In this document: positions 1 to 35,635 of the stretch, in pieces
How the letters are laid out: every line of letters starts with the position of its first letter
Position numbering within the stretch: position 1 is the first letter of the stretch
IMG/VR virus record: IMGVR_UViG_3300040811_001105
Span: 1-37,001 of that record
From: a virus
Strand: one strand, 5' to 3'
Length of the DNA stretch: 37,001 nt
Notes under the pieces: model-generated
Told to the model about the DNA's origin: nothing
The model's database searches: none
Seen by the model: only the letters and a program-made list of their open reading frames with translations
Translations under genes and position numbers: made by a program

Positions 1-1044
1 TTCGGTATCAACATTTTGAGGTAATTCCCAGCCATTTGATATTGCAGTGTTGATTAATTTGCTGATTGAAGCCCTGATTGGCGCATCACCAATTGAGAGG
101 ATTTTCTTGGCTGGCTCCCATGTACCGGGTGATTGCCAGTCAGCTTCTAGAACGATGTCTTGTGCAAGAGACTGTCCGAAATGGTGGGTTAGAGCGGCGA
201 GGCAGGCGAAGCATACCGGATAGGTGCCTTGCCCTGCTTCAGTGCGAAGGGGAATGTAATCACGAAGGATTTCAACAGCAAGTGTGCGCTGCTCTGCTGG
301 TGGAAGTTTAGAAAACCAGTGATGAGACGGTTCTGCTGGGCGGGTGCCACGTTGAAAAATTGTTGGAGCAGCGGCACCGATCTCGTCTGGGGTGAATGTT
401 TCGGTAGTGGTCGAGGCGATAACCGTGCGTTCGCCAGTGCTGGGGTGGATACCACCGGGCAGGCGCATGACACGGGATGCGTTAGAGATCGCCTTGTCTG
501 GCTTGGAGTCCGGCGCAACGATCTCGATTGCGGTTGCGATTCTGCGTTGCAGGTCGGAGAAATCTTGGATGTCAGGCTCTCGGCCTGGGGTGAACATCCA
601 GTAATGGTGAAGAGATTTACCACCAGTCCAGACCGAGACTGTTGGCTCTGGGAGGCCAGCCATTGCAGGCAGTGCTGCTTGAGCTTCGCGGTCGAGATTG
701 CCGTCGCACTCCGCGAAGCAGGCGATTGCGTGCTCGATGTGTGCGTTGGAAGCTCCCCAAGCTTTGATCTCACCAGCGCGGTTAATGTGCTCCGGCTTGG
801 TGCCCCATACAGCAGGCTGGTCTGAGGGTGGATTGACGACAAAACCTAGGCTGCTCCCTGAGTTGCGAGCAAGGATGCGTTCGATTTTGTTGCGTGGGAT
901 GTCCTCGGCATCGGCCTTGATATGGATACAAGGCCGCGACGGATCGGAGGGATAAACAGCGAAAACTATGGGGCCGGTACTGCGACCGATGGCCTCAAGG
1001 AAGTCTTCGGTGATTGACCAGTCAATAAGGGCAGGGTTAGGCAT
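1..1044 (-). CDS. Primase-polymerase (AEP-type) N-terminal part, runs off left edge
   Basis: The frame is open for all 348 codons from an ATG at 1044 down to base 1, so the gene is partial at its 3' end. The visible part looks like an archaeo-eukaryotic-type primase domain: an acidic motif with E112 and D114, the GGKSLHHYW motif with H146 at about 141-149, a later acidic residue D183, and an RLPGG segment near 194. Plasmid and phage prim-pol proteins carry this order of hD/E-x-D, sGGKsxH and hD motifs. A helical region at about 270-340 may be a PriCT-like linker, and a helicase domain could follow outside the window. The role would be primer synthesis at the phage origin. It is transcribed divergently from the 1306 gene. 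The family call is from motifs only. Confidence 0.72.
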   Translation of the reverse strand, partial: MPNPALIDWSITEDFLEAIGRSTGPIVFAVYPSDPSRPCIHIKADAEDIPRNKIERILARNSGSSLGFVVNPPSDQPAVWGTKPEHINRAGEIKAWGASNAHIEHAIACFAECDGNLDREAQAALPAMAGLPEPTVSVWTGGKSLHHYWMFTPGREPDIQDFSDLQRRIATAIEIVAPDSKPDKAISNASRVMRLPGGIHPSTGERTVIASTTTETFTPDEIGAAAPTIFQRGTRPAEPSHHWFSKLPPAEQRTLAVEILRDYIPLRTEAGQGTYPVCFACLAALTHHFGQSLAQDIVLEADWQSPGTWEPAKKILSIGDAPIRASISKLINTAISNGWELPQNVDTE

Positions 1045-1069
1045 TTAATTTTGTTGTAGGGACTGAGAG

Positions 1070-1162
1070 TACACGAACGCTGCAAGGTTGGCGTGTATAT
1101 ACGTGTACACAACATCTGGCCGTGATTCTTTGTGCGCACACTCTGAGGGGCGGGTATATACC
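1070..1162. promoter_or_regulatory. Palindrome cluster in divergent intergenic region (operator or origin candidate)
   Basis: Between the divergent primase and ParB-like genes there are four perfect short palindromes: GTATATAC (1095-1102), GTGTACAC (1103-1110), TGTGCGCACA (1131-1140) and GGTATATACC (1153-1162). TACAC at 1070-1074 faces GTGTA at 1093-1097. The GTATATAC core occurs twice, about 60 bases apart. Sites like these commonly bind dimeric repressors or initiator proteins. A neighbouring ParB-like gene, HTH gene and primase gene make either reading plausible. No convincing -35/-10 promoter pair was found for either direction. Confidence 0.45.
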
Positions 1163-1205
1163 GCAAATTCGACAACACAGGCGTTTGACTGCTATGGTTC
1201 TTGCA

Positions 1206-1240
1206 GCATGAAAAAACCCCGACGCCAATCGGGGTCATGC
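1206..1240 (-). terminator. Intrinsic terminator pointing leftward
   Basis: On the minus strand ACCCCGA (1222-1216 on the other arm) pairs with TCGGGGT around a six-base loop, and six T residues follow (plus-strand A run 1211-1216). Outer GCATGA/TCATGC can add a further stem. It lies upstream of the leftward primase gene and would stop leftward transcripts entering from the rightward gene block. Confidence 0.7.
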
Positions 1241-1305
1241 AATGGCTAAATGGTTTGCCTATCCGCTTCCCATTTTAGCTCAGTCCTTTCGTTTACTGAG
1301 TTCAA

Positions 1306-2295
1306 ATGAACGCCAACACTTCGACCAATTACGACCCCTGCTTGATTCCTTCTCTCGCTCCTGTGATCAGAAAAGCGACTGAGGCTCTAAACAGTTCAAA
1401 GACCGGCTCCTCCGAGCTAAAGAAAAACATCGAAAGAGTTGTTTCTTCGACTCAAAGCTTAGAAAGCGAGTTTCAAGTTCAAAAACCGGACGGTGGCTCT
1501 GCTTTACGTTGTTTTACTTTTGCCGAACTAGCTGAAAGTTCAAAGCACGAAGTAACAGCTCAAGCCGTTGACCCTTCAGCGGTTAATGACATCTTGTTTG
1601 GGCGGTACGGGCTAATCCGCAAGTCAGGGGGCGGTAGAGAGAAAAGGCTGATGGAAGATATTGAAGTCGCTTACATTCACGACTTACGAGCAGGATCAGT
1701 TATTGGCCCAATCATTACGTCAGGCCGTCACCGCACATTAGCGTTGCAAATAATGTTAAAAGCAGCTGGCTTTAATGGCTATCAAAGCGTAAAGGTACGT
1801 TGCTCGGTTATCAATTGCTCTCTTCAAGAAGAGGTACAGGCTCGAATTATTTCAGCCAATACTGGCTCTAGGGATTTTTCTCGCGCAGAGATTCGTGAAA
1901 GGGTTGGTTCTACGAGTGGAGTTGAACTGTTTAGCTGCGAAAGCATTCAAGATTCAATTTTGCACGCAGGGAACGCTAAAGACTTTAAGGCAGCCTTTTC
2001 CTGCTATGTAAAACTTTTAGCAGCAGATCTTGACTTAAATCACTTTACCCCCGCGCAGTATTCCGACGCAGGAAATAGTCTCTGGAATCAGCTTGAGAAA
2101 GCAAGGCCAGAAGGAGGCACTTTTCTCAAATGGATCAAGGCAGACAAGCCTGGAAGGTTTGAAAAAGTAATGTCATCCGTCAAGGCAGCTCTTCCGCTGG
2201 CAGTTGTTACTGCACAGCATAACCCGCAAAATGGCTCAAAAGCAGGAAAAGTCGCTAGAGCGTTGTCACCCACAGTGATTGAGCGATGCTTTTGA
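1306..2295 (+). CDS. ParB-like nuclease-fold protein
   Basis: 329 residues. The segment SGRHRTLAL at 139-147 resembles the G-x-x-R-x-x-A signature of ParB/Srx-fold proteins. SANTGSRDFSRAE at 183-195 resembles the motif that follows it in ParB-like families. The N-terminal 60 residues are Ser/Thr-rich and look flexible. No clear C-terminal DNA-binding domain is visible. In phages such proteins act in DNA partition, replication control or nicking, but which applies here is not visible. It is the first gene of the rightward block and ends just before an intrinsic terminator, so it is probably its own transcription unit. The start has no strong Shine-Dalgarno sequence. Confidence 0.5.
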   Translation: MNANTSTNYDPCLIPSLAPVIRKATEALNSSKTGSSELKKNIERVVSSTQSLESEFQVQKPDGGSALRCFTFAELAESSKHEVTAQAVDPSAVNDILFGRYGLIRKSGGGREKRLMEDIEVAYIHDLRAGSVIGPIITSGRHRTLALQIMLKAAGFNGYQSVKVRCSVINCSLQEEVQARIISANTGSRDFSRAEIRERVGSTSGVELFSCESIQDSILHAGNAKDFKAAFSCYVKLLAADLDLNHFTPAQYSDAGNSLWNQLEKARPEGGTFLKWIKADKPGRFEKVMSSVKAALPLAVVTAQHNPQNGSKAGKVARALSPTVIERCF

Positions 2296-2322
2296 CTTCA
2301 CTTCTAAATTGAACTTTATCAC

Positions 2323-2344
2323 CCCGCTTTTAAGCGGGTTTTTT
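2323..2344 (+). terminator. Intrinsic terminator after ParB-like gene
   Basis: CCCGCT (2323-2328) and AGCGGG (2333-2338) form a stem around a four-base loop, followed by TTTTTT at 2339-2344. It closes the ParB-like transcript. The next ATG (2350) follows after only five bases, so downstream expression needs either read-through or an internal promoter. Confidence 0.85.
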
Positions 2345-2349
2345 ATTCC

Positions 2350-3108
2350 ATGAACAGCGAAGAGCCTAGATGCGGAGACGACTGCAAACTCGTTGAAATG
2401 TTGGCAAGTAGAACATCAAGAGAACAAGTAATGGAAAACGCTATTGCTGCAGTTAAAACTGGCAACATCAGTCAACGTGGTGCTGCAAGGCAATTTGGCG
2501 TTGCTCAAAAAACGCTTTCTCGCAGACTAAATAAAAATGACGTCGTGAGTCAAGTGACTCATGACGCATCCTCGCCAGAAAGCGCACCTGCTAAACCTAA
2601 AAAAGCTGATCAAGCTGAACGTGATCAGTGGTACGCGGACTATGAGGCTGGCGAATCTATCCGCAGCCTCTCTAAGAAATACAGGCGTAGCGACAAGACT
2701 ATTGCAAAAGAGATAAACAGCAGGAAGAGCAATGGAAGCGAGTCTGAAGCCACAGAGTGGCCACCTGTTAATGATCAACCTGTTACGCCAACAGGCGAAC
2801 TCAACGATCACATGAAAGCTCTTGTTAAACGTGAAAGCAAAAGCAGCAAAGATCGGCTGAAGATTGTAGCGGCATTGAAAGAAATCCAAATTCCGTTAGA
2901 GAAAACAATGAGAGCAGCTTCAAGGGAGTTTCGCTTCGGGCGAGGTATCGTTTATCAAGACGTAATGGCAGCTGAAAGACAGTTGGCCAAGGATGGCAAT
3001 CCTGGTATCAGGGAGACATTGGAAGAAGTTGCTCGCGAAGCGGAGTCGGTCAGAAAGTTTGCCACTGAATCGCTGCGCCTGTTGCAACTTGATAGGGACG
3101 AGGCATGA
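2350..3108 (+). CDS. DNA-binding regulator with psq-type helix-turn-helix
   Basis: 252 residues. Residues 31-60 have the classic pipsqueak/transposase-type helix-turn-helix pattern, with a GNISQRGAARQFGV core followed by QKTLSRRL. A second HTH-like segment, SIRSLSKKYRRSDKTIAKEI, lies at about 102-121. The C-terminal half is helical and charged. The protein may control early transcription or assist replication. The ATG at 2350 sits right after the upstream terminator and has no Shine-Dalgarno site. An internal ATG at 2431, just before the first HTH and preceded by AAGAGAA, is a plausible real start. The stop overlaps the helicase start by ATGA. The DNA-binding call is good; the target is unknown. 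Confidence 0.65.
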   Translation: MNSEEPRCGDDCKLVEMLASRTSREQVMENAIAAVKTGNISQRGAARQFGVAQKTLSRRLNKNDVVSQVTHDASSPESAPAKPKKADQAERDQWYADYEAGESIRSLSKKYRRSDKTIAKEINSRKSNGSESEATEWPPVNDQPVTPTGELNDHMKALVKRESKSSKDRLKIVAALKEIQIPLEKTMRAASREFRFGRGIVYQDVMAAERQLAKDGNPGIRETLEEVAREAESVRKFATESLRLLQLDRDEA

Positions 3109-4496
3109 CTCTCCGCCCCCGCCAAGTCCAAGCGATCAATGACATCAGGGTTGCGTATCGGTCTGGGTATCGGGCACCGATTTTGTGTGCTGCTACGGGG
3201 TTCGGCAAGACCCATACCAGTGCAGCGATTATCCAGTCTGCGCTCGACAAGGGCAAGACTGTTTGGTTTCTCGCTCATTTGAGGGAGATCTTGGATGACA
3301 CGGCCAACCGTCTGCGTTCGGTGCAGATCCCGTTCGGTGAGATTGCTGCTGGCAAGCCAATGGAGTATCACCGCCGGGTTCAGGTTGTGAGCGTTCAAAC
3401 TGCTGCGAGGCGTGATGGGTTCCCGCCGCCGGATCTTGTGATTGTGGATGAGTGTCACTTGGCGGTGGCCACGACCTATCTCAAGGTGATGGGCAAGATT
3501 GGCAACCCACCGCTGCTGGGGCTGACCGGCACCCCGTGCAGACTGGACGGCAAGGGATTAGGCGAGATCTTTGACGAGATCGTGCCAACATGCAGCACCA
3601 ACGCACTAATTCAAGAGGGGCTTTTGGCCCCGATCAAGTATTTCGCGCCGCATCGACCGGACCTGACCGGGTTAAGGGTGCAGGCCGGTGACTACAGACA
3701 ATCAGACATCGATGGTGAGATGGACCGTTCAACCATCACGGGTGATGTGATCAAGCATTATCAGAAGCATTGTGACGGCAAAAGAGCGGTGGCATTCTGC
3801 ACGTCGATTAGCCATGCCGAGCATGTTGCTGCTGAGTTTCAGGCTCAGGGTTATAAGGCCGTGGCAATTTCAGGCAAGAGCAAGCGATCAGAAAGAGTCG
3901 CGGCCTTGACTGGTCTTAGGGATGGCAGTTTGCAGGTTGTATGCAATGCCCAGCTGTGGGTGGCTGGTGTTGATGTACCTCAGATCGAGTGCATTATTTT
4001 GCTCAGACCGACAAAGAGCTTGACTTTCTATCTGCAATCAATTGGTCGCGGCCTGCGAACATCGCCGGATAGTGGCAAGCAGCATTTGACCGTTCTGGAT
4101 CATGCCGGTTCGATTTTCGAGCATGGCCCACCGGACATGGAACGGCAGTGGAGCCTGGAGGGCCGGAAGAAACGTGGTGAACAGGCGCCTCCCGTCAGGC
4201 AGTGTCCTGCGTGTTTTTGTGCTCATGTTCCAGCGCCGGTTTGCCCTGAATGCGGGTATCGGTATCCGGCTCCGACTCGTGGCGGCCCAGCTGAGGTTGA
4301 TGGCGAATTGGGTGAGATTGATCCAAGGCAGGCAGCAGCGTTAGAGAGGCTTCAAAAACAAAAAGCGCATATTGCTAAACGTGCGGAACAGGGCAGAGCT
4401 AAAACGTTGGAGCAATTAATCGAGCTAGGCAAAAGTCGAGGCTATAAATATCCAGTACCATGGGCAAAGAAAATAATGGCATCGCGGCACTTTTGA
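3105..4496 (+). CDS. Superfamily 2 DEAD/DEAH-type helicase with C-terminal zinc-finger
   Basis: 463 residues. Seen in order: RPRQVQA (4-10), Walker A ATGFGKT (30-36), DECH Walker B (115-118), TGTP motif III (141-144) and QSIGRGLR motif VI (311-318). After the helicase core comes a cysteine cluster (C367, C370, C372, C380, C383) that could bind zinc. The layout matches phage SF2 helicases of the UvsW/RecG-like functional class, which unwind or remodel DNA in recombination-dependent replication. The start overlaps the HTH gene stop by ATGA, indicating coupled translation. The 3' end overlaps the VRR-NUC gene by 37 bases, the usual neighbour of this helicase type in phages. Confidence 0.88.
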   Translation: MTLRPRQVQAINDIRVAYRSGYRAPILCAATGFGKTHTSAAIIQSALDKGKTVWFLAHLREILDDTANRLRSVQIPFGEIAAGKPMEYHRRVQVVSVQTAARRDGFPPPDLVIVDECHLAVATTYLKVMGKIGNPPLLGLTGTPCRLDGKGLGEIFDEIVPTCSTNALIQEGLLAPIKYFAPHRPDLTGLRVQAGDYRQSDIDGEMDRSTITGDVIKHYQKHCDGKRAVAFCTSISHAEHVAAEFQAQGYKAVAISGKSKRSERVAALTGLRDGSLQVVCNAQLWVAGVDVPQIECIILLRPTKSLTFYLQSIGRGLRTSPDSGKQHLTVLDHAGSIFEHGPPDMERQWSLEGRKKRGEQAPPVRQCPACFCAHVPAPVCPECGYRYPAPTRGGPAEVDGELGEIDPRQAAALERLQKQKAHIAKRAEQGRAKTLEQLIELGKSRGYKYPVPWAKKIMASRHF

Positions 4497-4897: not shown

Positions 4898-5122
4898 ATG
4901 ACTGAACAACACCCACTGACTGACGAAATCTGCGATCAAATTCAAGACTCAATCCACCCTTGTGACTCTGCAAACATGCGTGCCGCTGCTGATTGGCAGT
5001 TGGAGCAGGTGATTGAGTGGATTGAGGAATGTTCAAACTATGACCTTGATTTTCATTCCGAATGTCGAAGGATGATCGCAGACCTCAAACGGGCGATGCG
5101 CCCACAGGAGGACAAATCATGA
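4898..5122 (+). CDS. Small cyanophage-type protein, paralogue of the 5753 gene
   Basis: 74 residues from ATG 4898 (MTEQHPLTDE). A longer TTG-started version from 4859 is unlikely, because its extra residues are the repeat read in the wrong frame. The protein has MTEQHPLTDE at its start, MRAAADWQLEQVIEWIEE in the middle and LKRAMRPQED at the end. The gene at 5753 shares all three blocks, so the two are duplicates. AGGAAG lies eight bases upstream. The stop overlaps the next start as ATGA. I recall this family from cyanophages; its function is unknown. Confidence 0.8.
   Translation: MTEQHPLTDEICDQIQDSIHPCDSANMRAAADWQLEQVIEWIEECSNYDLDFHSECRRMIADLKRAMRPQEDKS
5091..5116 (+). repeat. Boundary repeat copy B
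   Basis: GGGCGATGCG through GGACAA encodes the RAMRPQED tail of the 4898 gene and contains AGGAGG, the ribosome-binding site of the 5119 gene. It differs from the other copies by a few bases. Confidence 0.8.
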
Positions 5123-5532
5123 CTTACAACGCTGAACTGACATTCAAATTTGATGCTACCTACACTCATGATTATACTCGTGGGTTTGCATCTCACCTTG
5201 GTGCTGATGACTTTCTCCCTGAAGAGCATTTCCTGATCACAGCACCTGCTGCTGATCTTAATCCCAAACAGTATTTCAAACTCTTTGAGAAGTTCATGCT
5301 GTGTGTAGGTATGGACCCCGCAGATATTCGCTCTGGTGCTATGTCACTGGTGTTTAATGAGTATGTCCGTGAAGAATACCAGCGCAAAGTATGTGCTGAG
5401 TATGAACTGACTATGGATGAAGACCTTCATGAAAAGTTTAAGGAATGGAAGGAACGTGATGAAGAGATTGACGTTGATGACGTTCTTGATGACTCAAAGG
5501 AAGCAATGCGCCCACAACAAGAGGACAACTGA
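5119..5532 (+). CDS. Hypothetical acidic protein with AMRPQ tail
   Basis: 137 residues starting at MTYNAELTFKFD. The start is fixed by the AGGAGG six bases upstream and the ATGA overlap with the previous stop; an in-frame ATG at 5062 is inside the upstream gene. The body is acidic and does not resemble its neighbours, yet the last residues (KEAMRPQQEDN) carry the same tail as the 4898 and 5753 genes. This implies that an unrelated gene body was joined to a common tail. No known domain was recognised. Confidence 0.75.
   Translation: MTYNAELTFKFDATYTHDYTRGFASHLGADDFLPEEHFLITAPAADLNPKQYFKLFEKFMLCVGMDPADIRSGAMSLVFNEYVREEYQRKVCAEYELTMDEDLHEKFKEWKERDEEIDVDDVLDDSKEAMRPQQEDN
5501..5529 (+). repeat. 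Boundary repeat copy C
   Basis: AAGCAATGCGCCCACA is identical to copies A and D, followed by a three-base insertion (ACAAGAGG instead of AGGAGG). It encodes EAMRPQQEDN of the 5119 gene and supplies the ribosome-binding site of the 5532 gene. Confidence 0.8.
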
Positions 5533-28141: not shown

Positions 28142-28611
28142 TATCTCAATGAAATGTTTCCGGTAGAAGGAAGTTCCCCGACGCTTACTTGGGTAAGGAC
28201 ACGCCTTGGGATGTTTGCTTCAATCGCGTCCAAAGGGTTACCCAGTCTTACCTGTAGCCTACTCGTATCATGCTCAAATCCAAGCACTGCATACAGCTCT
28301 TCGCTGTAACGGTTTGTCTCAACCAACGTATCTGGGTCAAGCCATACCGTGCGTATCTCCGCAAGCCAACGTTGATCTGATGCTGTTTGAAAAATACTTA
28401 AATCCAGTTGATTTACAGCAAAAACAACTGCCGCTGAAATATTGGCAGCCTGTAGGTCCAGGGTCCCGCCACTAAAGCCAAAACCTGCAAATACATAACT
28501 TGTGCCTAAATACGTGCGCGACTCGCCTTGGAAAAAGTTCTGGAAGGCATAGCCAGTGTCTGAGCCTTCAAAGTCAACAAGCTTAAGATAAGTACCAATC
28601 GCAAGCATCAA
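28141..28611 (-). CDS. Minor tail protein between tape measure and tip
   Basis: 156 residues. It occupies the place of lambda L or of DUF1833/DUF2163-type proteins. VWLDPDTLVETNRYSEELY and NPLDAIEANIPRRVLTQ are reminiscent of tail-tip adaptor proteins in which the chain ends in an arginine-containing P-x-R motif. The start overlaps the tape measure stop by four bases. Assigned mainly by position. Confidence 0.55.
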   Translation of the reverse strand: MMLAIGTYLKLVDFEGSDTGYAFQNFFQGESRTYLGTSYVFAGFGFSGGTLDLQAANISAAVVFAVNQLDLSIFQTASDQRWLAEIRTVWLDPDTLVETNRYSEELYAVLGFEHDTSRLQVRLGNPLDAIEANIPRRVLTQVSVGELPSTGNISLR

Positions 28612-31600
28612 CCAAGCCCCACTTTTGACCTTGACGCAGGTCGCTGCCTTAGGTCAGAAAACACTTGGCTACGAGCCTTGCGAGAAGCGGACTCAGAAAG
28701 CGCAAGACCTTGCTCAACGGTGAGATATTCCACGTTGTTGATTACGGTGGTGTCCAGCTTAACTCTGATCGGTTCTGACATTTCAGTTGCTTGACGCTCT
28801 GCGGCCTTGCGCTCAATCACGCGCTCCATTGACATTGAACTTGACGATACAGCTGCTTGACTTTGAGCAATGGCTTGCTGAGTTGAGTAGTTGTTGCTGA
28901 TGTAATTGCGGCTCTCGACCATTCCATCTTTACCAAGATCACCAGAGTTTCCAGCGGCACCTAACGGACCACCGCCAGAGATAGCAGCACGACTTGCCGA
29001 AAAGACATCGTTTGGAATAATGGTTCCGTTGCCTGAAGGGACCATAAGCTCAGGCCCACGCTCGCCAACGATGTAAGGCGTATTCGCGTTCACTGGACCG
29101 CCTGCGGCGCGTTGAGCAATGCCGAAGTTTGGCCCTAAAGTCCCGATCCCACCAACTTCGCCACCACCCGCGCCTAGCGGTGTGCTCCCAAGATTGAATC
29201 CGCCACCAGGCAGCAAGTTAACAACAGTATTTAAAACTGCCATTGTCACCATCTTCGCAATAATCTGCCCCGCCATGTCCAAGAAATAACTGCCAACACT
29301 CTTAAAGAAATCAGCTAATGCCTGCTTCGCACTTGTGGCACCAGTAATTGCATTTGTGAACGACTGTGAGAATGCACTGCCAATAGCGTTTGCTGCGCCA
29401 GTGATTTGGTTGATTGGATTTACTAGATCTTCCAGCTCTTTTTTCAAACCACGAATGTTTTGGCTCAACCCTTCCGTCAACGTTGGGTCTATTGTTTGGC
29501 GGAACAGATCGGTTTGCTGTTCAGCATTTGGATCTCCTGCGTCTATCCTTGACTGCCTGAATCTGTCAATTTTCTGCTTTTTTGTCACCAAGCCAAGCTG
29601 ATCGCGCAGGTTGAACAATTCGTCTTCAGAGGCTTTGGCGATTATTTCCGATGCAATAGCTTGGTCTTGCTTAAGGGCTAGTAGCTCACCATTTGCCGAA
29701 ACACTTAGCTTTTCAAGATCAAGGTCTCGTTCCAATCCTGCAATTTTTTCTTGTAATTGACGTTCTGCAATATCCTCCGTTTTGTTCGCAGCATTCATAG
29801 CATCCAGGTATTTGTTTCTTACTCCAAGCTCTTTCTCCCCGAAGTCAAGATTTATAGCGTTATTTTTTATCGTGTAAACTAGCTCTGTATTGTTATCTTT
29901 TTGCGCCCGAACTAGGGCGAGTGAATTTGCGATCTGAAATCTTTGAATGTCCGCCAGTGGGCCGGATCGAATCAGCGAGTCGTACTTGTCCTGAAGCCGT
30001 GGCAGTTGCGACTCTCTGAACTTGCCGCCGCCGCCGCCGCCGCCGCCGGTATCAGTGCCGGTGAGAGAACCGTAGTCGGTTAGACCTTTAGCGGCTTCTG
30101 GAGCACTAGGGTACTTCTCAATTAAAGTTTTATAGTTCAGTCGAAGTCTTGCTATCTCTGCCTCGTCTGCTTTTAGCCTTGATGTCAAGTCTTCTGGGAC
30201 TGCTACACCAGCGAGAGGAGGCGCACTTCCCCCCATGGCCCGCTCGCCACCATCTGATTGCGATGCCTTAAACTCTTTAATACTTTTCTTTGTTTTCGCG
30301 AGCCTAGCTTCGACAATATCAAGATTCTTGACAATATCCTTAAAGTTTGATCTCAGCGTTTCTTTCGTTGCAGCCGTTCCACCGATTGACCTGAAGAAAA
30401 CTTCACCTTGAGGTTTTGTGCCAGAAGCGTCAAGGTCAGCTTTTGCTTGCTTAATTCTATTGAAGTAAGATATAACCAGCTCTGCGCCAACGATGGCAAA
30501 GGTTATTACGATTGGCGCCACTAAGGACGCAGCTAAAGTTTTCACTGTCGCTCCAAACCTGGCCAGCTTTGTCGCAGCAAGAGACGCCTGCTGAGTGGTT
30601 TGTCTGAACCCAGTTCTTATTAATGCGAACATAAGTTTTAGTGGCCCATTTAAAGCAACAAACGCTTTTAGTGCAAAATTCACGGCAACAAGCTTTGCCG
30701 CGAAAGATGCAATAGTCAATATCGCGCCTCTGTTTTGAATAATAAAACGCATCCCTTCTCCAACAGCCTTCGCCATAACCACCAAGCTTGGGCCAATATC
30801 GGTAATAAATTCCAAAAACGCTTCCTGAAACTCAGCCCCGATTGGCTGAAGAGCTTTGCCTATTTCAATCCGCATCTTGTTATATGCAACCGTCAACCTT
30901 GCTCCAGCTGACTCGGAAGACCCGGCAATCTTTTCAGCCAATTCGCCGTATTCACCACCCAGTTGAACCAAGAACTTCATTAGATCATTCAGGCCGACCT
31001 CACCCTGCTGTAAAGCTTTTGTTAGTTCTGGGCCGGTCCTGCCTGACGCTTCAGCAATTTTGTTAAATGTGCCAGGCAGTCTTTCTGCAATTTGATTGAT
31101 CTCTTCTGCGCTGACTTTGCCCTTCGAGAAAATCTGAACGAGCGCAGTTACGGCTCCTTCAACCTGCTCTGCTCCGCCGCCCGTAGCGATAATTGCAGAG
31201 TTGATGTTCTTGAACGCAAGTTCTGCATCAGCAATGCCACCGCCAGCACCTTTTACTGCGGCTGTAAGTCGAGTGATTCCTTTGATAGCAACTTCTTGTG
31301 GAATGTTTAATTCTTTTGTGACATCAGCAGCGGCTTGCAGTGCTCGGTTGTAATTACTTGCGTCACCTGCAATACCATTCAACGCGATTTTGAGTTTCTC
31401 AATGCTCGCCGCATACTCAGCAAACCCACCAAGCTGCTGTCTGAGCTGACCTACCTGAGCGCCAAGTGCAGCACCAGCAAAAGACCCGCCAACACCACCA
31501 AGCGCACCACCAAGCGCACCACCGAGAAATCCTTCAGGGCCGCCAAAGATACCGCCCGAGAGCGTCGCGCCAGCAACCTGGGCGGCCTTGCCGGGGGAGA

Positions 31601-35075: not shown

Positions 35076-35181
35076 TTTCTTGTGGGGTGTCGGCGGGAAG
35101 TGTTCGCTTGATCAGAGTGCGTTTTCCGGTTTCTGGATCGAAAAGATACGACCCACCTTGACCGCTGTACTCGTCTTTCAT
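34945..35181 (-). CDS. Small protein overlapping tail tube start
   Basis: 78 residues, MKDEYSGQGGSYLFDPETGK, then KRTLIKRTLPADTP and a Ser/Thr/Arg-rich tail. The first half (GGSYLFDPETGKRTLI) resembles a small protein often found just before the tube gene in cyanophages. It is open before the tube start, supporting its reality. The last 44 codons are read in another frame of the tube gene and are low complexity, so their function may be slight. Probably coupled to tube translation. Confidence 0.55.
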   Translation of the reverse strand: MKDEYSGQGGSYLFDPETGKRTLIKRTLPADTPQENGTTSSTETTDSDRNRVELRSRSDSNRNRRGFGEGSEHHPAAK

Positions 35182-35206
35182 CGTAATCCTTGCAACTGCT
35201 TAAACC

Positions 35207-35635
35207 TTAGTAGGAAGTAAGGTCTGCTACTGATGTTCTGTATTTAACGTCGTACTCGTTAGAAAACACGCCAGCAGGTTGGTCTGCATCAAGAAACTCA
35301 AAGCTTGTCAAAACAGGCTGAATATCAATCGCCAATCCACCCAGAGTCAAATCAGCCATAAGTTTGGAGTGCATCGATTCGATTACCGAATCTGCATCTG
35401 TATAGGGAGTTGTTGACCTAGTAATCACAACGACTCTCACCCGCATTGTCCAGTCAAGCTTTGGCAAGGAAGTCTGCTGCTGCGCAACATCATTCACTGG
35501 CTCAATCACGATCATCGGAGTCTCAGCCCTTGCAGCCGCTGTCACTCTTGACCTGTACACCCTCCCATTAACGCCAGCGGTGCTGGCCAGTGTCGTGGCA
35601 ATCTGCGCCAGGATTTGTTCGCGCCTAGTAGTCAT
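35207..35635 (-). CDS. Tail terminator/completion protein, gpU-like
   Basis: 142 residues. The pattern REQILAQIATTLAST, then TPMIVIEPVND, RVRVVVITRS and DADSVIESMHSKLM, followed by LTSFEFLDADQPAGV and a final EYDVKYRTS strand, fits tail terminator proteins of the lambda gpU/minor tail U type. These cap the tail tube and join it to the head. The gene sits upstream of the tube gene, as expected. The match is by pattern only. Confidence 0.7.
   Translation of the reverse strand: MTTRREQILAQIATTLASTAGVNGRVYRSRVTAAARAETPMIVIEPVNDVAQQQTSLPKLDWTMRVRVVVITRSTTPYTDADSVIESMHSKLMADLTLGGLAIDIQPVLTSFEFLDADQPAGVFSNEYDVKYRTSVADLTSY

Follow-up and report, generated by a model that had tools for sequence, protein, structure and literature searches.

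A palindrome-rich gap between divergent genes of a putative cyanophage: a possible control region carried by an exchangeable cassette

Introduction

The divergent promoter and operator regions of phage early control are typified by OR and OL of phage lambda. The locus described here is like them in having palindromic words clustered between divergent transcription units, near HTH genes, and unlike them in that it holds three different palindrome words instead of repeats of one operator and in that it is part of a cassette that relatives exchange, the protein that binds the palindromes being putative.

A second type of arrangement concerns origins of replication. In pRN1 the origin lies just after the orf904 primase-polymerase/helicase gene as a 100-nt stem-loop without iterons, and the same layout is proposed for Bordetella phages (PMC4234260). 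In the Vibrio PLEs, the RepA_N domain is reported to co-vary with the origin and to match it in function (PMC8263062). Relatives of the DNA analysed here resemble pRN1 in combining an AEP primase and a helicase in one protein and in having candidate origin DNA right after its stop codon, outside the DNA analysed; they differ in carrying pentamer iterons in several versions where pRN1 has a stem-loop free of iterons. They resemble the PLEs in that a DNA-binding domain, putative in the present phages, and origin repeats change together between relatives, although the PLEs have a RepA_N initiator and iterons of about 30 bp, and the present phages would use the C-terminal end of a primase-polymerase and 5-bp words. 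An origin placed after the primase-polymerase gene is therefore a variation on arrangements already known.

The gap between the primase-polymerase gene and its divergent neighbor was originally predicted to be a possible origin or early operator. On balance, and with no great confidence, we favor a reading in which positions 1045-1305 form a two-module divergent regulatory gap, part of an exchangeable cassette between primase-polymerase and helicase, and not a replication origin.

Genomic context

The window, that is the whole stretch of DNA analysed, is a virus record of 37,001 bases without end repeats, and a circular form was ruled out, as terminal overlap is absent and the reading frame is not continuous across the joined ends. 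Its close relatives are IMG/VR contigs of at most 58 kb. Three long contigs among them (G004, G005 and G007) end at the same place, a tandem-repeat zone at about 35168-35540 of G003, and the two ends of G003 itself are adjacent in G004, so that this may be a break in the assemblies or a true end of the genome.

At its left end the window holds the 5′ part of a leftward gene for an AEP primase-polymerase/helicase (prim-pol; 1-1044, minus strand), truncated by the contig end and 888 codons long in the relatives. Beyond the gap at 1045-1305 lie, on the plus strand, an ORF of 329 residues (1306-2295), an HTH_psq protein (2350-3108) and, at the right flank of the cassette, an SF2 (ResIII-type) helicase (3105-4496), so the neighbors named in the original prediction are in place. 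The ORFs on either side of the gap, 1-1044 on the minus and 1306-2295 on the plus strand, point away from each other, as expected of an operator/promoter region. Rightward early genes, among them helicases, a VRR-NUC nuclease, exonucleases and Thy1, begin at 1306, and the leftward genes include those for tail, virion and endolysin.

The prim-pol part in the window is 37% identical to the S-2L primase/polymerase gene in a match that covers 36% of the query, and the prim-pol of the relatives matches the solved PrimPol domain 6zp9 (E 4.6e-11), which we take to be the S-2L protein. The C-terminal part (residues ~362-888) also occurs in isolated phages, with Synechococcus phage S-H1 as the best match at 37.9%. 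Because of the matches to S-2L and S-H1, the host is presumed to be a cyanobacterium. Elsewhere in the window, positions 5119-5470 are 80-84% identical in DNA to a hypothetical gene carried by the Synechococcus phages S-PM2, S-RIM50, S-M1 and others (genomes of 172-196 kb), a similarity that may reflect exchange between unlike cyanophages.

The palindromes and the cassette that carries them

Four perfect palindromes of at least 8 bp are present in 1070-1240, as predicted: GTATATAC (1095-1102), GTGTACAC (1103-1110), which abuts it directly, TGTGCGCACA (1131-1140) and GGTATATACC (1153-1162). The repeated core described for this stretch was likewise found, GTATATAC lying inside a 13-nt direct repeat, GGCG[T/G]GTATATAC, with copies at 1090 and 1149 (12 of 13 positions alike) of which the first spans 1090-1102 and the second belongs with GGTATATACC, and so were the TACAC (1070-1074, 1106-1110) and GTGTA (1093-1097, 1103-1107) elements.

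The density of these palindromes had been called unusual, and it is so only moderately. From the rate in the window as a whole 0.43 would be expected and four were observed, a count that 0.3% of 171-bp windows reach and that was attained in 44 of 5000 dinucleotide shuffles of the stretch (0.0088; mean 0.78). The stretch is the densest in the window, but each of the six contigs scanned has some place that holds four or more palindromes; the densest places in G003 and G004, with 14 and 18 palindromes, stem from a TA run. Moreover, the palindromes are located within alternating purine-pyrimidine tracts, and such tracts favor self-complementarity. The feature is thus real, and its density moderately out of the ordinary.

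The window is one of nine contigs with the same prim-pol; repeat searches returned the same eight others, and one of them added five more distant loci. The palindrome gap occurs in three of the nine, the window and two near-identical relatives, G003 (= L009, 98%) and G005 (= L011, 94%), and is missing from L008, L010, L012, L013, L014 and L015. In those six contigs the blast alignment to the window ends at 1029-1031 and restarts at 3104-3111, so that the cassette with the palindromes, the gene at 1306-2295 and the HTH gene (window 1032-3103) is replaced as a unit by other genes, and the flanks are kept, with 81.6-94.3% identity in prim-pol and 69-95% in helicase. The slot holds two HNH endonucleases (Pfam) in L012, a DUF5131 protein and another ORF in L008, and an ORF of 110 residues in L010. 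Upstream of prim-pol, L010 and L012-L015 carry different sequences of their own. L013 and L012 are identical in this upstream sequence as well as in the prim-pol protein, and the two may be one lineage. Since the slot contents differ and the flanks are kept, the palindromes travel with the cassette (about 1032-3103).

Within the three carriers, G005 differs from the window at none of the 36 palindrome positions and at 15 of the 125 other positions of 1045-1205 (Fisher p 0.024, in a G005-only test chosen after the data had been seen and with indels treated as changes). G003 has one change within the palindromes, which breaks GTATATAC to GTATGTAC, and three elsewhere in 1045-1205; pooled, the two relatives show changes at 1 of 72 palindrome and 18 of 250 other positions (p 0.086). 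It is suggestive only that substitutions avoid the palindromes, and, as the carriers are just three close sequences, their conservation is weak evidence.

These figures bear on an alternative in which the palindromes have no function and arose by chance, from alternating purine-pyrimidine tracts, in intergenic DNA that changes fast. As 0.9% of shuffles give four, palindromes in a gap that is replaced in most relatives could be chance, and the equally dense places in six of six contigs and the palindrome broken in G003 agree with this. The avoidance of palindromes by the G005 substitutions speaks against it, as does the uniqueness of the core words, GTATATAC, TGTGCGCACA and GGTATATACC having no second occurrence in the 37-kb window. 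We regard an origin by chance as a real but lesser possibility.

Two further occurrences of palindrome words were set aside. The word GTRTRTACGTGTACAC was found in 27 stretches of viral contigs, the known relatives L005 and L006 and 25 others, and these are background because none of the 25 others encodes relatives of the nine left-end window proteins tried. An occurrence of GTGTACAC near a second site in G004, G005 and G007 adjoins the end of a gene, where the contigs align with one another, and is not taken for an operator.

A conserved leader and the proteins around the gap

The right part of the gap has a different history. A 39-kb contig, G001, shares the gene at 1306-2295 (67% identity in protein) and the sequence from 1206 onward, and contains none of the five palindrome words searched. 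Across the leader (1206-1305), 74 of 104 alignment columns are identical (71%; 81% by blast over its own stretch), in a comparison where identity at the third codon positions of the adjacent gene is 35.4%, close to saturation. Within that coding sequence the best 100-nt windows reach 75-76%, so the overall identity of the leader is not unique; it is notable for being reached without a kept coding frame, the frames of small ORFs at 1209 and 1242 not being kept in G001. Judged from these alignments, the leader (1206-1308), rather than the palindromes, is the most constrained part of the gap and the part that most deserves bench study.

Two elements stand out within it. The first is a hairpin at 1206-1240 (GCATGA-CCCCGA-loop-TCGGGG-TTTTT-TCATGC), conserved in G001, which read leftward has the GC-rich 9-pair stem and T run of an intrinsic terminator. 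Between the window and G001 all pairs remain standard on the leftward strand, including a change from A-T to G-C and one G-T, and on the rightward strand one pair becomes C-A in G001; because the pairs are all kept leftward, this suggests a leftward terminator. The second is a dyad with arms CATTTTAGCTCAGT (1271-1284, plus strand) and ACTGAGTTCAAATG (1295-1308, plus strand), each 14/14 identical in G001, the right arm containing the ATG of the downstream ORF. The arms pair at 13 of 14 positions on the rightward and 12 of 14 on the leftward strand. Rightward RNA of 1205-1320 folds at z = -4.2 in the window and -3.7 in G001, and the leftward strand of 116-121 nt at -3.0 and -2.4. A tRNA was rejected as the source of the dyad, ARAGORN finding none in the window, and a pattern search of genome contigs found no further dyad of this kind. 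The cyanobacterial PsrR1 was also rejected: its full-length Rfam match is below threshold (18.8 bits against 42; E 0.59), consists mostly of terminator stem and U-run, is absent in G001, and is not among the matches listed for L002 and L003.

The leftward orientation of the hairpin raises the alternative that a short leftward antisense RNA, ending at 1206-1240, controls the downstream gene in the manner of plasmid countertranscripts on rep genes. To the right of this left-facing terminator all genes run rightward (in the window, and in G001 as far as the same gene and the next), its pairing is better kept on the leftward strand, and that strand folds at the z-scores given above. However, the promoter scan lists no leftward promoter in 1240-1400, the dyad pairs better rightward, and Rfam offered only the sub-threshold PsrR1 match. 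We consider this antisense control unlikely.

The promoter scan found two promoters in the surrounding 4 kb against 3.0 expected in shuffles, a total not above chance; its one match in the gap is rightward (1169-1198, plus strand), a TCGACA-18-TATGGT element with TG before the second hexamer, from which RNA would start near 1205. As a binder of the palindromes the HTH protein (2350-3108), one of the two named for binding assays in the original prediction, is unlikely. When the window, G005 and G003 are aligned, the protein hardly changes over its first ~27 and last ~130-140 residues, the HTH half being variable and the C-terminal half nearly constant, and that this HTH middle varies strongly and the palindromes hardly at all argues against a dedicated pair. 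A hypervariable middle between constant ends may in itself indicate a DNA-reading part under exchange or diversification. The second gene of G001 matches only the C-terminal part of the HTH protein (43% over 100 residues) and has by eye a GRHR-type motif and an HTH, of which Pfam gives the HTH only.

The name ParB-like for the 329-residue ORF rests on a GRHR motif recognized by eye, and no ParB match was obtained in Pfam, PHROGs or NCBIfam. The AlphaFold2 model has a mean pLDDT of 49, and no relatives of the protein were found in bacterial genomes. An adjacent ORF of this kind could mean that a ParB-like protein binds the palindromes as a centromere, similar to parS, in a plasmid-like phage partition system. 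Besides the missing family match, G001 lacks all five palindrome words searched although it keeps the gene with its leader, and no ParA was seen among the proteins scanned, which were part of the ORFs. Partition of this kind is thus quite improbable.

In the two-module arrangement that we favor, the left module (1045-1205), with the palindromes, would be the promoter/operator island of the cassette, serving the leftward prim-pol and the rightward early genes through a putative dimeric regulator that binds the palindromes. The right module (1206-1308) would be the conserved leader of the ParB-like gene, in which the leftward terminator may insulate the two directions of transcription and the dyad over the start codon may act as a start-codon hairpin or a protein operator, and the whole gap would be swapped with the cassette between prim-pol and helicase. 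In favor of divergent control are the divergent genes, the restriction of the palindromes to contigs with the cassette, the G005 changes that avoid them, the retention of the leader in G001 and its folding, and the lack of both a skew change and a pentamer excess, described below. It is weakened by the lack of a promoter above chance, the variable HTH and the palindrome broken in G003.

Where is the origin of replication?

Of the two roles first suggested for the gap, that of operator survives, as part of a divergent control region, and that of origin does not. Measured by the refuting conditions of the original prediction itself, GC skew shows no sign change here, being +0.178 over 1-1000 and +0.052 over 1001-2000, and the sites are kept only in two relatives that are nearly identical to the window. 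The local cumulative-skew minima of four long relatives (G003 27531, G005 45763, G007 49564, G004 7510) all lie inside prim-pol, although coding strand confounds skew and makes this evidence weak. Iterons are not over-represented in 1045-1305, where the best pentamer has four copies, equalled in 207 of 300 shuffles; GATAC, GTATC, GACCC, GTAAC and CTAAC are all absent from the gap, which holds one GGGTC at 1232. An iteron origin is expected to be kept with its initiator gene, and 1070-1240 is missing from six of the eight other contigs with this prim-pol. Furthermore, G003 and G005 share the palindrome stretch yet differ in the type of iteron found downstream of prim-pol, so the two have been inherited separately. 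The position beside the prim-pol gene and the highest palindrome density in the window do favor an origin, but the stretch is probably not one, and a phage origin with the palindromes as initiator sites seems to us highly improbable. Setting this call aside removes a tempting but wrong origin assignment and illustrates that a palindrome cluster can ride with swapped cargo.

A much better origin candidate in the relatives is the DNA immediately downstream of the prim-pol stop. Each of the eight has an AT-rich tract and repeated pentamers there, about 3 kb from the palindromes (L009 6667-7090, that is G003 ~28257-28680, and the same place in L060-L067), in DNA that lies beyond the window, which ends inside prim-pol. 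Counting both strands, six contigs (L060, L061, L062, L063, L064 and L067) have 11-12 copies of GATAC and two (L065, L066) have nine of GACCC, at corresponding places of the alignment. The more distant L073 and L074 (~50% relatives) have GTAAC 11 times, and S-H1 (L081) has seven copies of CGTTA and six of CGTTAG. Of 300 shuffles made for each sequence, none equalled the top pentamer of the six GATAC contigs, L073 or L074; one did so for L066, one for S-H1 and five for L065. Of the five more distant loci, these counts cover L073 and L074, whereas L076, L079 and L080 are partial or weak matches. Three other phages with a related gene, Microcystis phage Mwe-JY13, Serratia MQ-4 and Bordetella PY223, show no iterons above shuffles downstream of it. 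Among titles and abstract beginnings in an open-licence PMC subset, no description of such a cyanophage origin was found.

The pentamer type also follows the protein. Among seven prim-pol proteins (L008, L009, L010 and L012-L015), six positions separate the GACCC group (n=2) from the GATAC group (n=5), and five of these are at 857-873 of 888, within the last 32 residues. In the prim-pol of G005 (L011/L064) the last frame has a GATAC-type end, with GATAC repeats downstream. The same gene has a frameshift before codon ~719, an assembly error or real, with the frame recovered downstream. We give about even chances to a cyanophage-group origin just after prim-pol in which the pentamer is rewritten as a set (GACCC, GATAC, GTAAC or CGTTAG by lineage), and in which, as the GATAC/GACCC switch goes with residues among the last 32, prim-pol would act as the initiator and read the pentamer through its C-terminal domain. 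Two observations temper this. Nucleotide differences climb from about 2400-2500 of the prim-pol gene straight into the repeats, so that both might have arrived in a single recombined block with no causal link between them, and as only two contigs have GACCC, independent switch events may number one. If true, the series would represent natural swaps of initiator and origin specificity, and would provide a testable origin candidate, in two interchangeable versions, for cyanophages with AEP primase-polymerases.

The model of the prim-pol C-terminal domain is moderately confident, with a pLDDT of 75, and its best Foldseek match has an E of 1.2. A second structural comparison placed first, with a best Z of 4.3, the Salmonella STY4665 C-terminal domain, accessory proteins of the pCW3 relaxosome and HSF-type DNA-binding domains. 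These weak matches, DNA-binding domains among them, are compatible with a winged helix, which the predicted domain may be.
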